From NCBI GenBank assembly GCA_024686135.1, contig JAIBDQ010000002.1:17733-81732 (forward strand): a stretch of 64,000 nucleotides of DNA. The letters are read 5' to 3'. Numbering within the stretch: position 1 is the stretch's first letter; each line of letters opens with the position of its first letter. Source of the DNA: Halobacteriovorax sp. (GTDB lineage Bacteria; Bdellovibrionota; Bacteriovoracia; Bacteriovoracales; Bacteriovoracaceae). Shown one piece after another: positions 17,701 to 58,156 of this stretch. The notes under the pieces are model-generated. The model was not told the origin of the DNA. It saw only the letters and a program-made list of their open reading frames with translations, and did not search any database. The position numbers and the translations under genes are program-made.

Positions 17701-18096
17701 ATGGATAATATTGAAAGAAACATATTCTTTCATATAAAGACTTTGAAAAAGGTCAGGGGCTTAACCCTGGGAATTCTCTCTGACTTAAAAGCACAAGAGG
17801 TCGAAAAAGCCTTAATCGGCATTCAAAATAGAGACAATCTATTAAAAGTTATATTCGACCTTAATAATATAATAGAAAAACACATTGAGAGTGCCCAAAA
17901 TCTTGAGCAAAAAGATCACCTATTAATTAAAGCCTGGAGGTTAGACCTTGATGAATGGTCTAAAAACCAGTCCAAAAAAAATAAAGAGATCGAAGAATTG
18001 TTGAGAGCCGAGAGAGATAAGATCACAAACGAGATAGCTGTTATATTTGACAAAAAAAGTCGTCATAAAGGCTATGATTTAACCAATGTAAAATAG
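17701..18096 (+). CDS. FliT-like small helical protein
   Basis: About 132 residues, almost wholly helical and charged, starting at an ATG three bases after the fliS stop. I cannot match it confidently by sequence. The position directly after fliD-fliS and the small helical composition are those of FliT, the chaperone for FliD, or of other flagellar chaperones. No Cys-rich, membrane or catalytic motif is present. The FliT assignment is an inference from context. Confidence 0.6.
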   Translation: MDNIERNIFFHIKTLKKVRGLTLGILSDLKAQEVEKALIGIQNRDNLLKVIFDLNNIIEKHIESAQNLEQKDHLLIKAWRLDLDEWSKNQSKKNKEIEELLRAERDKITNEIAVIFDKKSRHKGYDLTNVK

Positions 18097-46422: not shown

Positions 46423-47802
46423 TTAATTAAGTGCCACGAGAGTCTCCAATTGTAAAGTTCTACTCCCCTTTAGAAAAAAGTTAGAGTATCTCTCGTAACA
46501 ATCGGCCCAATCGTGCTTTAGTTCATCCACATTAGCGTAACACTTTCCTGCTTCAGAGTATCCCTTATTATAGAATTTGCTAAACCTTCCTACGAAAATA
46601 ACTTCACTAATATTTAGTGATTTTAAATATCTTCCAATTTCCTCATGATACTCTGGGCTCCTATTTCCAAGCTCATTCATATCGCCAAGAACAAAAAGGC
46701 TCTTGGATAAATCTTTCGATCTATCTTTTAAAAAAGTCGTAAATGTTTCTAGAGAAGCAATCATAGAGGAAGGATTTGCATTGTAAGCATCTAGGAAAAT
46801 AGACTTACCATCTCTATCAATCAGCTCTGATCTGTTGTTACTGGGTAGTGAAATATTTAAACAACAACTTTCTATTTCTTTAATTTTTTCAGGGAACATC
46901 TGCACCATTAAGCTTGCAGATAATGCCAAATTTTTAAAGTTATGAACTCCAAAAAGAGATGGTGCCTCCAAAGTTAAATCGACCTTCCCCTTGAGCTCCA
47001 TCTTAGTTCCCGTTAGCACAGCTTTTGTATTTCCATCCCTTAAACCAACCGAGACTGTTAAATCATCAAGAATTAATTTTTTTAAATGTCTATTATCTCC
47101 GTCGATAGAGAAGAATCCTTTTTTATTATTTACATAATCATATAAAGATCTTTTTTCTTTAAATACATTTTCTTCTGTTTCAAAGAACTCTAAATGTGAC
47201 TGACCAACGGTTGTAATAATACCAGCATCCGGATCTCCAAGATTACATAAAAATGGAATCTCTCCAGGATGATTAGTTCCCATTTCTAAAATGCAAATAC
47301 GATGTTTATTTTTGAGCCTTAGCATCGTCATAGGTACACCAAGATGATTATTCAGATTGCCGGAAGTATATAATACTTCTCCTGGGAACAAAGATTCACA
47401 AATATATGCGAGTAACTCTTTAGTTGTAGTTTTGCCATTGCTTCCAGTTATGCCGATTGTTTTGCTATTATTAGATCTCGAACGCCAATTATTTTGATGA
47501 AACTTGGCTAAGTCTTGTAAATATTTTTCGGTATTATCAACACCAATAAGAAAAACTTCCGGAAACTTTGTGAATAAATCTGAAGCATTAAAGTTTTCAT
47601 CGATTCTATATATGCAACCTGATGCCCCCTTAGTAATAGCGGATTCAATGAACTTATTTCCATCAAAATTCTCCCCTGATAAGGCTAAAAATAAATCTCC
47701 TTCTTGTATTGTTCTAGTATCTGTTGAGACGCGCTCTACCTGACGAATTTTTCCAAAGAATTGATCTTTATTTTTATTTACGAAGTCATCTATCTTTATC
47801 AT
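46423..47802 (-). CDS. murF: UDP-MurNAc-tripeptide-D-alanyl-D-alanine ligase
   Basis: A 459-residue Mur ligase adding D-Ala-D-Ala. Its P-loop is GITGSNGKTTTKEL, followed by LEMGTNHPGEIPFLC, and DAYNANPSSM and VLGDMNELG near the C-terminal third are diagnostic for MurF. ATG start one base after the murE stop, so the two are coupled. Length matches family. Confidence 0.95.
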   Translation of the reverse strand: MIKIDDFVNKNKDQFFGKIRQVERVSTDTRTIQEGDLFLALSGENFDGNKFIESAITKGASGCIYRIDENFNASDLFTKFPEVFLIGVDNTEKYLQDLAKFHQNNWRSRSNNSKTIGITGSNGKTTTKELLAYICESLFPGEVLYTSGNLNNHLGVPMTMLRLKNKHRICILEMGTNHPGEIPFLCNLGDPDAGIITTVGQSHLEFFETEENVFKEKRSLYDYVNNKKGFFSIDGDNRHLKKLILDDLTVSVGLRDGNTKAVLTGTKMELKGKVDLTLEAPSLFGVHNFKNLALSASLMVQMFPEKIKEIESCCLNISLPSNNRSELIDRDGKSIFLDAYNANPSSMIASLETFTTFLKDRSKDLSKSLFVLGDMNELGNRSPEYHEEIGRYLKSLNISEVIFVGRFSKFYNKGYSEAGKCYANVDELKHDWADCYERYSNFFLKGSRTLQLETLVALN

Positions 47803-47803
47803 T

Positions 47804-48493
47804 TTATTCTCGAATTGATTCCACTACCGAGAAGTCACTAAAAAAATGCTTCTCACCTTTAATCTCTTGGTACTCTTCATGACCTTTACCAGCTATCAAT
47901 AGAACATCACCTTCCTTTAGGTTCTTAACACCTGCCTTTATGGCCTTTTCCCTATCGGCTTCTACCAGCAAGGGTTCCTTTTTTAAACCTACCAAAATAT
48001 CTTTTATAATTTCGTCAGGCTCTTCTGATCTTGGATTGTCACTTGTGACAATGACTCCATGACTAGACTTTTCAGCTGCCTCGGCCATAAGCGGCCTCTT
48101 TGTTTTATCTCTATCACCGCCGCACCCAAACAATGTAATTACTTTAGACTTTGGAAAGGCCTTAACTGTTGCTTCTACTAGGTTCTCTATTGCATCAGGC
48201 GTATGAGCGTAATCGACGATAGCGAACGCATTATTAACCGGTAGAACTGAAAATCTTCCTTTCGGTGTCGCAATATTATTTAAATCAACTTTTTTAATAT
48301 CTATAAGACTAGCCACAACTCCTATAGAGAGCGCCAAATTGTCCTTATTATAATGTACTTTAAAAAATGGTGGTAAGTTAACAATCCCCAACTCTTCAAG
48401 GTTTTTAACTTTTGTAACTTTTGAATCCAGAGTCTCATTACTCATATATTTTTTTAAATCTTCAAAAAGTTTCACTTCTGATGGCGGAACCAT
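47804..48493 (-). CDS. murE: MurE C-terminal part (split by an in-frame stop)
   Basis: A 229-residue piece holding the ligase C-terminal domain: DYAHTPDAIENL, FGCGGDRDKTKRPLM, TSDNPRSEEPDEII and AGKGHEEYQ. DNPR is the signature for meso-diaminopimelate as the amino acid added. It starts at an ATG six bases after the TAA of the preceding piece and in the same frame; the codons between are TAA, TTA, ATG. No good ribosome-binding site precedes this ATG, so translation would depend on reinitiation or readthrough. Both halves look intact and conserved in key motifs, unlike a decayed pseudogene. Either MurE is made as two chains here or the stop is a sequence error. Confidence 0.8.
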   Translation of the reverse strand: MVPPSEVKLFEDLKKYMSNETLDSKVTKVKNLEELGIVNLPPFFKVHYNKDNLALSIGVVASLIDIKKVDLNNIATPKGRFSVLPVNNAFAIVDYAHTPDAIENLVEATVKAFPKSKVITLFGCGGDRDKTKRPLMAEAAEKSSHGVIVTSDNPRSEEPDEIIKDILVGLKKEPLLVEADREKAIKAGVKNLKEGDVLLIAGKGHEEYQEIKGEKHFFSDFSVVESIRE

Positions 48494-48496
48494 TAA

Positions 48497-49210
48497 TTAG
48501 GTTTCCGAGTCTTCGAACAATTCAACGATTCTGGCTTTTGCTGAAAAATATTCTTCCATCGTTCCATGGTAATCAAGATGGTCCTGACTAAACGAAGTCC
48601 AACCTGCCCCTGTCAGCTTTATACTGCCAAGTCGATTCTGATCAATTGCATGACTACTTACCTCCATAAAGAGATATTTAATATCTGAGCTCAAAGCACT
48701 TAAAACTCTTCTCAAATCAATATAAGAAGGTGTCGTGCCTGTGATTCCTAGATCTTTAATTTTCCCATTCACAGTAACACCAACAGTACCCAAACTTCCT
48801 GCTGGAATATTTTGTTGAAGGAGTAATTGCTCGCACAAACAAACACAGGTTGATTTACCATTAGTCCCAGTAATACCAATTACTTTTGGAGTACTGGTAC
48901 CTATTGGATAAAGATCATTTAAGATCTCTTCCAGTAAATCAGCCTCATTATTTAAATCAACAATAACGGTTGGATAACTTATATCAAACGCAGGTTTTTT
49001 ATTTAGAAAAAGAATTTCAGGTTCAACGGAGCTTAGTCTTTCTTTAAATAAGGATTCTGAATTAGAATCAGAAATTCTATAAACAGCCGCTATCCCTGCA
49101 CCTGAGTTTTGTAGGTTTGTTGTTAAATGTTGGAAACTAATATCATTATCGAAATTTAATAATTCAAACTTTAAATTTTTTAGATAGCTTAAAAGTTGAT
49201 CTTTATTCAT
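48497..49210 (-). CDS. murE: MurE N-terminal part (ends at an in-frame stop)
   Basis: A 237-residue piece of UDP-MurNAc-dipeptide:meso-diaminopimelate ligase. It holds the N-terminal uridine-binding domain and the first half of the ATPase domain: P-loop GITGTNGKST, MEVSSHAIDQNRL and DHLDYHGTMEEYFSAKARI, in which the Lys of SAKA is the expected carbamylated residue. It stops at TAA (48497-48499) where the ATPase domain should continue; the frame resumes unchanged. The full reading would be about 468 residues, near the normal MurE length. ATG overlaps the end of ftsI. All residues needed in this half are present. Confidence 0.8.
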   Translation of the reverse strand: MNKDQLLSYLKNLKFELLNFDNDISFQHLTTNLQNSGAGIAAVYRISDSNSESLFKERLSSVEPEILFLNKKPAFDISYPTVIVDLNNEADLLEEILNDLYPIGTSTPKVIGITGTNGKSTCVCLCEQLLLQQNIPAGSLGTVGVTVNGKIKDLGITGTTPSYIDLRRVLSALSSDIKYLFMEVSSHAIDQNRLGSIKLTGAGWTSFSQDHLDYHGTMEEYFSAKARIVELFEDSET

Positions 49211-51119
49211 AAACTGGCGGGGAGTAATTTAAAGATATCTCTGTATCTTTAGTTAATACTGATCCTGGAGCGGGCGTTTGTGATTTTACCACTCCAATTC
49301 CTGCAGATTTTATCTTGGCTTTTATTTTCTTTCCTAGTTTCATACTAGATTTTTTATCAAGACCTATAAAATCTGGAACAACTTCTGCGCTTGTAAATCT
49401 TCTTGCTGCTGATTGTTTAAACCTAACCTTATCAATATCACTTCCAATTTTCGGTTTCTTAATCGCCATCTGGTCAAACTCTTTTGTTTTATAAAGCATA
49501 TACTCAGCTACTTTCTTAAAGATAGGAGCCGCAATCTGGTTCCCATAATACTTTTTACTTCCAGGCTCATCTACATAGGCAAAGATAACAAATGGCTTTT
49601 TAATATTTACCGGGTATCCAATAAAACCCGGTATATAACCTTCATAGCCCCCATTCTTACCGGCCTTTTGAGCTGTACTCGTTTTTCCAGCTATTTTGAA
49701 ATAAGGAATTTTGGCATTTCCACCAGTTCCATCTTCAACCGCTTTAACAAGGATACTTGTAAGCTGGTCAGCCGTTGATTTATCTATAATCCTAGTTCTT
49801 TTCCTTTCTTTGCTTTCATCTTTTATTATTGTTGGAGGAATATAGTAACCACCGTTAGCAATCGCTGCATAAGCGGCGAGCATTTGAACACCTGTTACGG
49901 CCACTCCTTGTCCGAAAGAAATATTACTAAGGGTTAGTGGAGACACATTTTCATTATCATTATAAATTCCTCTAGATTCACCCGAAACTTCAATACCAGT
50001 TTTTTTTCCAAAACCAAATTCTCTTAAGGTTTCATTTAACCTAGGGTAGGTAAGATCAAAGGCCATCTTTGTCGTTCCAATATTTGAACTATACATTATA
50101 ATTTCTTCAACTGATAACCATTCATAATTTTTATGTGACTCGGCTTCAGTAATTACATGATCCTCTACTTTTAAATATCCACGCTCACAATAATAATTCG
50201 TATCAATCCTCGCAATTTTATTTTCTAAAGCTGAGGCAACGGTAAATACTTTAAAGGTACTCCCTGGCTCAAAGGGATCTGATACAAATGAAAGCTTCCT
50301 AAAGTCTCTTTCACTTTTTTTCAACACATTTGGGTCATAGGTAGGGTAATTTGCCATGGCTAAGATTTCACCAGTTGTTGCATCAATAACCCCGATACCA
50401 CCCTTTTTTGCTTGGAATTTTTCTACAGAATCTTTAAGTGCTTTTTCAGCAATAGCCTGAAGTTCTTTATCAATAGTTAAATTTAGCTCAAGTGGTTTAC
50501 CTTTTAAGCTCGAGCTCTGCATTTTAATGGCCCTACCTTTAGCGTCCTTAACATAGCGAATTGTTCTAGGCTCACCTTTGAGTTCCTTATCGAAGCTATA
50601 CTCAATTCCTGCTAAACCAATATTATCAATACCTACAAATCCTAGAGCCTGTGAAAATAGCTCATGATTTGGATAGATTCTTTTTGGAACAGCTTCTATA
50701 TAAATACCTGGAATTTCCTTGATTGTTTTTACTTGCTCTTTAGAAAGTGAAATTTTTCTTGCCAGCCATGTATAGCGCTCTCTTCCTTTAATCTTCTTTA
50801 TAATTTTTCCGTAAGTTAGAGCTGGTACTGTTTTCGCCAGTTTCTTATAACTAGTTTTGTCAGCTTTTAAATTTTTTGGAATAGTGAAAATACTATAAGT
50901 TTGAATATTTAAAGCGAGTGGATTTTTATTTCTATCATAAATATTTCCTCGCTTGGGATATACCTTTCGTTCTCTAATAAACTGAGATTTACTTCTACTT
51001 ATGAGTTCTTTTTTATCAACAACCTGTAACTTTAGCGCTTTTGCTAGGATTAACGTAAATGCTAATAGGAACATCCCTAAAGTAAAATAAATTCTATGCT
51101 TTAAATCTTTATTTTCCAT
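49203..51119 (-). CDS. ftsI: Septal transpeptidase FtsI/PBP3 with PASTA domain
   Basis: A 638-residue class B penicillin-binding protein with one N-terminal membrane span (about 10-28), a dimerisation domain (RGNIYDRNKNPLALN), and a transpeptidase domain with the SxxK motif in GSTFKVF, SSN in YSSNIGTTK and KTS in AGKTSTAQ, where most PBPs have KTG. A PASTA-like domain closes the protein (VPDFIGLDKKSSMKLG, then PAPGSVL). It crosslinks septal peptidoglycan with FtsW. It overlaps murE by eight bases. Among proteobacteria a PASTA end on FtsI is not the rule, though it is found in several Gram-negative lineages. Confidence 0.93.
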   Translation of the reverse strand: MENKDLKHRIYFTLGMFLLAFTLILAKALKLQVVDKKELISRSKSQFIRERKVYPKRGNIYDRNKNPLALNIQTYSIFTIPKNLKADKTSYKKLAKTVPALTYGKIIKKIKGRERYTWLARKISLSKEQVKTIKEIPGIYIEAVPKRIYPNHELFSQALGFVGIDNIGLAGIEYSFDKELKGEPRTIRYVKDAKGRAIKMQSSSLKGKPLELNLTIDKELQAIAEKALKDSVEKFQAKKGGIGVIDATTGEILAMANYPTYDPNVLKKSERDFRKLSFVSDPFEPGSTFKVFTVASALENKIARIDTNYYCERGYLKVEDHVITEAESHKNYEWLSVEEIIMYSSNIGTTKMAFDLTYPRLNETLREFGFGKKTGIEVSGESRGIYNDNENVSPLTLSNISFGQGVAVTGVQMLAAYAAIANGGYYIPPTIIKDESKERKRTRIIDKSTADQLTSILVKAVEDGTGGNAKIPYFKIAGKTSTAQKAGKNGGYEGYIPGFIGYPVNIKKPFVIFAYVDEPGSKKYYGNQIAAPIFKKVAEYMLYKTKEFDQMAIKKPKIGSDIDKVRFKQSAARRFTSAEVVPDFIGLDKKSSMKLGKKIKAKIKSAGIGVVKSQTPAPGSVLTKDTEISLNYSPPVYE

Positions 51120-56485: not shown

Positions 56486-58156
56486 CTACTGTTTTTTATT
56501 TACAATAACCTTATCAACTTTTGTGTTGAATAGACTTTCGGCCATTTTAAGCTGAGGGTTATCTAACATATTTTTTTCTTTCTCTTTAATTGCTTCTTCT
56601 AACTTCATATCTTTTAAATTGGCCACTGAATGAAACTCTTCTTCTTGCCCTTTAAGATCAAACTCAAGTTCAAGCTTATCCATAGAAACTTGGTAATAAT
56701 TGGACAATTCTGTAAGTATTTTAGATCTAACTTCTGGCTGGGAAAGATACTCATAAAAGACCTTTGCCGACTTGGGAAACCCAAGCTTTACACCTAAAGA
56801 TTCTCCAATCTTTTTTGGCTCTGAAATTATATTTCCTTGCTCTAGATTATGACCCGTAGCAGGTGAAATATTATGAACATGATTTAAAAAGCCACTCCAA
56901 GTCCTCGGACCTTCAATTTTTGGTATTTCTTTTTGAACAACCTCAGGCTTAATTTCTTGCACCTCTTCCTTTTTTTCTACTGGAATATCTAATGGAATCT
57001 TAATCCTTTTAGGTTCTTCTATAGTTGCTTCAAGATCTTCTTCTTGAACTTTTTTTACTTCAACCTTTTTTTTTTGAACTTTCTCTCCAAGCTCTTCTCT
57101 TCTTACGCATATCTTTTGTAAGATAATCTCTAGAGTTTTTCCTAAATCATAGGTTTTTGTAGCCCACTCAAGATCCTTAGAAAGAGTTTCATAAATCCAC
57201 ATTAACTCTTGAGGTCCATAAGCATCTAAGGACTTGGAATAGTTCGTCTTCCCATCCATCAAGGAGTTAATCAGCTCATAAAATGTATCAATCAAGCCAT
57301 GATAAATTTTTTCAGAAGAGACATTCTCAGTTTGAAGGCCACGGTAAACTTCACTCATAGCCCTAACATTTCCAGATAGGATATGTTCTGCTAACTCGTA
57401 AAGACTGGTTTGCTTAGCTAAACCTAAGCCAAGAAATAAGGTGTTCTCATCAATATTGTTATTTTCAGAAAAAGTTAAAAGTTGATCTAAGATACTTAAA
57501 GAGTCTCTAACTGATCCGTTTCCAAAAAAACTAATTTTTTCAATTATATTTTTATTTTCAAAAGTGATGCCTTCTTTTTCCGCAATTAAGGAAATTAAAG
57601 CATTAAGTTTTTCAAGGCTAGGACTTCTAAAATCAAATCTCTGACATCTCGATAAAACAGTATCTAAGATTTTCTCTGGTTCCGTTGTCGCAAAAATAAA
57701 AATTACGTGCTCCGGTGGCTCTTCAAGTGTTTTTAATAGGGCATTAAAAGCGCTCGATGAAAGCATATGAACTTCATCTATAATATAAACGCGATACGTT
57801 CCAGTTGATGGAAGAAATTGAACATTATTAATAAGTTCTCGAATATTATCTACAGAGTTATTTGAAGCACCGTCGATTTCTATGACATCAAGAGATTGAG
57901 TGTCTGCAAAGTTTTCACAACTTGGACATACTTCACAGGCCTGTCCATCATCACCCAATTTTTCACATCGAATACTTTTAGCAAAGATTCTAGCTACAGA
58001 TGTTTTTCCTACACCTCGTGTTCCTGTGAATAAATAAGCGTGACCCGTCCTTCCTCTTTTTAAGGCGTTCATGAGTGAAGTTGTAATATGCTCTTGGCCT
58101 ATAACTTCTTCAAATTTTCTAGGTCTCCATTTACGAGAGAGTACTTGATAGCTCAT
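56486..58156 (-). CDS. dnaX: DNA polymerase III subunits gamma/tau
   Basis: A 556-residue clamp-loader ATPase. Walker A is TGTRGVGKTS (about 43-52), then a Cys4 zinc site (C64 and CEVCPSC), Walker B VYIIDEVHML, and SRCQRFDF; domains I-III end near residue 350. The remaining 190 residues are Lys/Glu-rich and of tau type, for binding polymerase and helicase. A 10-A tract near codon 362 could yield a shorter gamma form by slippage. The ATG lies next to a 12-bp palindrome and is followed on the same strand by ybaB-recR. Confidence 0.95.
   Translation of the reverse strand: MSYQVLSRKWRPRKFEEVIGQEHITTSLMNALKRGRTGHAYLFTGTRGVGKTSVARIFAKSIRCEKLGDDGQACEVCPSCENFADTQSLDVIEIDGASNNSVDNIRELINNVQFLPSTGTYRVYIIDEVHMLSSSAFNALLKTLEEPPEHVIFIFATTEPEKILDTVLSRCQRFDFRSPSLEKLNALISLIAEKEGITFENKNIIEKISFFGNGSVRDSLSILDQLLTFSENNNIDENTLFLGLGLAKQTSLYELAEHILSGNVRAMSEVYRGLQTENVSSEKIYHGLIDTFYELINSLMDGKTNYSKSLDAYGPQELMWIYETLSKDLEWATKTYDLGKTLEIILQKICVRREELGEKVQKKKVEVKKVQEEDLEATIEEPKRIKIPLDIPVEKKEEVQEIKPEVVQKEIPKIEGPRTWSGFLNHVHNISPATGHNLEQGNIISEPKKIGESLGVKLGFPKSAKVFYEYLSQPEVRSKILTELSNYYQVSMDKLELEFDLKGQEEEFHSVANLKDMKLEEAIKEKEKNMLDNPQLKMAESLFNTKVDKVIVNKKQ
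57066..57075 (-). other. A10 slippery tract in dnaX
   Basis: On the minus strand codons CAA AAA AAA AAG make ten A in a row, after the ATPase domains and before the tau tail. Slipping to the -1 frame reaches TAA four codons later (AGG TTG AAG TAA), and the +1 frame reaches TGA at the second codon (GGT TGA). Escherichia coli (ribosomal) and Thermus (transcriptional) make gamma by such shifts. Use here is inferred. Confidence 0.55.

Follow-up and report, generated by a model that had tools for sequence, protein, structure and literature searches.

A lone in-frame TAA in murE of a Halobacteriovorax relative and its probable origin in the draft assembly

The closest described counterpart of the gene considered here is MurE, UDP-N-acetylmuramoyl-L-alanyl-D-glutamate--2,6-diaminopimelate ligase (TIGR01085; PDB 1e8c, 7b53, 2wtz). 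The two share the same domains, the same motifs, including DNPR, and the same gene neighbours, and the match is full-length and collinear once one stop codon is passed over. The difference lies in that codon, a TAA standing in frame in the assembly under study. The split-chain transketolase (PDB 6yak, N-terminal component) is another system worth comparing, as it shows the likeness that two adjacent open reading frames could in principle form one enzyme.

The window, that is, the whole stretch of 64,000 nucleotides that was analysed, is the part of contig C57 (81732 bases long) from base 17733 to base 81732. This contig belongs to the draft genome of a Halobacteriovorax relative (bin G000), which consists of 248 contigs and is 81.6% complete. 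On the minus strand of the window, a single frame (49210-47804) codes for 237 aa, passes through TAA, TTA and ATG, and continues for 229 aa to a terminal TAA (Table 1). An earlier sequence-only reading had described MurE as split by this one codon, and the translation confirmed it. The ATG was placed there six bases later, which is right when the count starts from the first base of the stop; from its last base the distance is three. The motifs said to be intact in the two halves (GTNGKST, the SAK segment, GGDRDK, DNPR and AGKGHE) were all found in the translation. With the TAA inside the match, the frame scores 328.8 bits for TIGR01085, above the cut-off of 257.3. The gene as assembled does not encode one uninterrupted chain. 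Pfam found profile positions 1-115 of the 200 of PF08245 in the first half (E 6e-29) and the complete PF02875 in the second (E 1.8e-29). The break therefore lies inside the central ATPase domain, as had been proposed.

Reading of the neighbour genes placed murE in its normal cell-wall gene cluster. No other copy had been visible to the sequence-only reading, and none was found in the bin, although only 81.6% of the genome is present there. A match for rpoB and several expected tRNAs are also missing from the bin, in agreement with this completeness. The viral contigs scanned for this murE gave no match, and a literature search on split MurE or on interrupted genes in bins returned nothing useful. 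The other apparent interruptions in the window proved to be antisense shadow frames, 5′ extensions or natural gene ends, leaving murE as the sole real one there. A TAA flagged in a histidine kinase is the natural end of that gene.

A separate observation in the window concerns a dnaX-like clamp-loader gene (56486-58156, minus strand), which carries a run of 10 A at 57066-57075. In the same-genus genome this run has 11 A and the frame breaks there. In other bacteria, dnaX is known for programmed slippage at such A runs; the simpler alternative here is a homopolymer error.

Table 1. Features of the murE locus (window positions) and lone in-frame stops elsewhere in the draft genome (contig:position)
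Feature	Position	Strand	Basis
Penicillin-binding protein, ftsI position, upstream of murE, intact; overlaps murE start	49203..51119	-	PF00905, PF03717, PASTA
murE first half, 237 aa: N-terminal part and start of central ATP-binding domain	48500..49210	-	translation; PF08245
In-frame TAA; lysine (AAG) in same-genus relative	48497..48499	-	sequence, alignment
Possible restart ATG; column V/I/L/F/Y in 18 aligned relatives	48491..48493	-	sequence, alignment
murE second half, 229 aa and normal TAA: remaining central domain and C-terminal ligase domain	47804..48493	-	translation; PF02875
Mur ligase, murF position, downstream of murE, intact	46423..47802	-	PF01225, PF08245, PF02875
ileS (isoleucyl-tRNA synthetase), TAA	C95:72165		orthologue pairs
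753-aa protein, internal stop, near contig end	C132:37168		orthologue pairs
Transketolase N-component, TGA	C6:11392		flanked-stop scan
htpG, TAA	C229:38340		flanked-stop scan
rluB-type gene, TAA	C182:5169		flanked-stop scan
HAD phosphatase-like gene, probable case	C33:12750		flanked-stop scan
Large repeat protein, probable case	C229:52349		flanked-stop scan

Over the whole gene, the interrupted frame and the same-genus relative's intact murE align without gaps, so that we are dealing with a single gene carrying a single lesion rather than with open reading frames paired by chance. The nearest named relative found was the Halobacteriovorax MAG L038, to which the first half is 75% identical. Purifying selection on the two halves is equal: against the same-genus gene, pN/pS is 0.235 in the first and 0.233 in the second. 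Neither half has thus been drifting, and there is no sign of relaxed selection. The sequence-only reading had proposed a comparison with relatives; among the murE matches listed in 38 relatives, none contained a stop, and each relative carried one strong match. The column of the stop holds lysine in 7 of the 18 aligned family relatives, while the column of the possible restart codon is hydrophobic in all 18. Judged from this alignment, methionine would be unremarkable there in an unbroken MurE; it need not be a start and is weak evidence of a new one.

In two family relatives, L022 (G020) and L025 (G024), the murE open frames reach 987 and 934 aa, with a second Mur ligase match behind. This suggests a MurE-MurF fusion, and PDB 8f5d is, judged by alignment, a fusion protein of this kind.

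If a lone stop interrupts murE, then we can ask: how often does this happen in the rest of the assembly? The comparison set about 0.95 Mb from the draft genome against 1.28 Mb from the same-genus genome. Among 365 orthologue-like pairs, three had an internal stop in the draft genome (murE, ileS and a 753-aa protein) and none had a frameshift. In the opposite direction, the same-genus relative showed three frameshift-like breaks and no internal stop that was convincing. A second scan sought stops with in-frame coding sequence both before and after them. Altogether at least five further conserved genes with a lone in-frame stop, and two probable cases, were found besides murE. Two candidates were dropped: at C139:6299 the relative shares the stop, and C233:33906 resembles the boundary of two genes. 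Homology continues across the stop in the transketolase N-component, HtpG and the RluB-type protein, and the transketolase stop stands where the two best solved homologues have a glycine. The case of ileS carries most weight. The bin holds one copy of this gene, and it contains the TAA; no ileS stop was seen in 23 relatives, and the stop is not directly followed by a start codon. Lesions such as assembly or base error would leave in genes expected to be intact are present in ileS, the transketolase gene, htpG, the rluB-type gene and the gene of the 753-aa protein. In the same-genus genome, the flanked-stop scan gave at most one plausible comparable stop. The difference between eight stops (two merely probable) in 0.95 Mb and at most one in 1.28 Mb has p of about 0.006, a rough value since the events were chosen by eye from the scans.

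Two chains, reinitiation, stop read-through and sequence error had all been listed by the sequence-only reading, without ranking. Sequence error is now favoured among them, and the results give no support to special biology in this MurE. We consider it highly probable that murE is an ordinary single-chain gene and that its TAA is either a wrong consensus base or a minority variant without function that the assembler took up. This explanation is preferred because further conserved genes of the assembly also contain lone stops, among them single-copy ileS without a nearby restart, and because murE and ileS are stop-free in the relatives examined and stop usage gives no sign of suppression. From one gene with one stop, intact relatives and similar stops in the same assembly, we infer that the base is most probably wrong. 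Such a base, or such a variant, would create an apparent TAA in murE, and the organism itself would very likely make normal full-length MurE. Given the codon usage, ~5% of single substitutions made at random would yield a stop codon, and the three orthologue-pair stops imply about 2e-4 substitutions per base; it is plausible that this value would fit draft base errors or minority variants. Against sequence error it can be said that seven of the eight stops are TAA, more than the 46% expected from random single substitutions (p about 0.02, rough for the same reason), although a biased error spectrum may account for the excess. Also, the 53 ABC-transporter matches were all free of stops, which means that the rate of lone stops is low. 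The in-frame TAA in several conserved genes would also be expected if some TAA codons were read through in this organism, whether because termination is leaky or because a suppressor tRNA is present. We give this the smallest probability of all, since TAA ends more open reading frames than any other stop codon (363 of about 666), and both stop usage (174/91/52 versus 173/97/47) and the number of tandem stops (99 versus 97) are like those of the relative. The bin, whose tRNA set is incomplete, yielded no stop-anticodon tRNA; the transketolase stop is TGA, and the replaced residues and the stop contexts differ between genes.

A stop really present in the sequenced cells is also conceivable, with murE a dead or minority allele and an intact copy either in the part of the genome that the bin lacks or in other members of the population. 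In a bin of this completeness a second copy could indeed be missing. However, the relatives have one strong murE each, the gene lies in its normal cluster without relaxed selection, and the explanation would have to cover ileS and the other interrupted genes too; we therefore regard it as unlikely. It is still less likely that the stop is real, that ribosomes start again at the ATG three bases downstream and that two chains, split in the ATP-binding domain, assemble into a working MurE. Both halves are conserved, and the spacing of TAA, TTA and ATG would allow coupled restart. In addition, a variable stretch begins at the stop, where 12 of the next 40 codons keep their residue, so that a split there is not impossible structurally. 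The position of the break within a domain, the unremarkable methionine, the absence of this stop from every relative examined and the other lone stops without a nearby start, as in ileS, all argue against it.

If the split were real, an essential enzyme divided in its ATP-binding domain would be a striking example of a working two-chain enzyme. Before an in-frame stop that stands alone in a draft bin is taken as special biology, it should be weighed against the bin-wide rate of such stops. Truly split enzymes differ from this MurE in that their split would be expected to recur in relatives, whereas the break described here falls inside a domain and belongs to one genome only.
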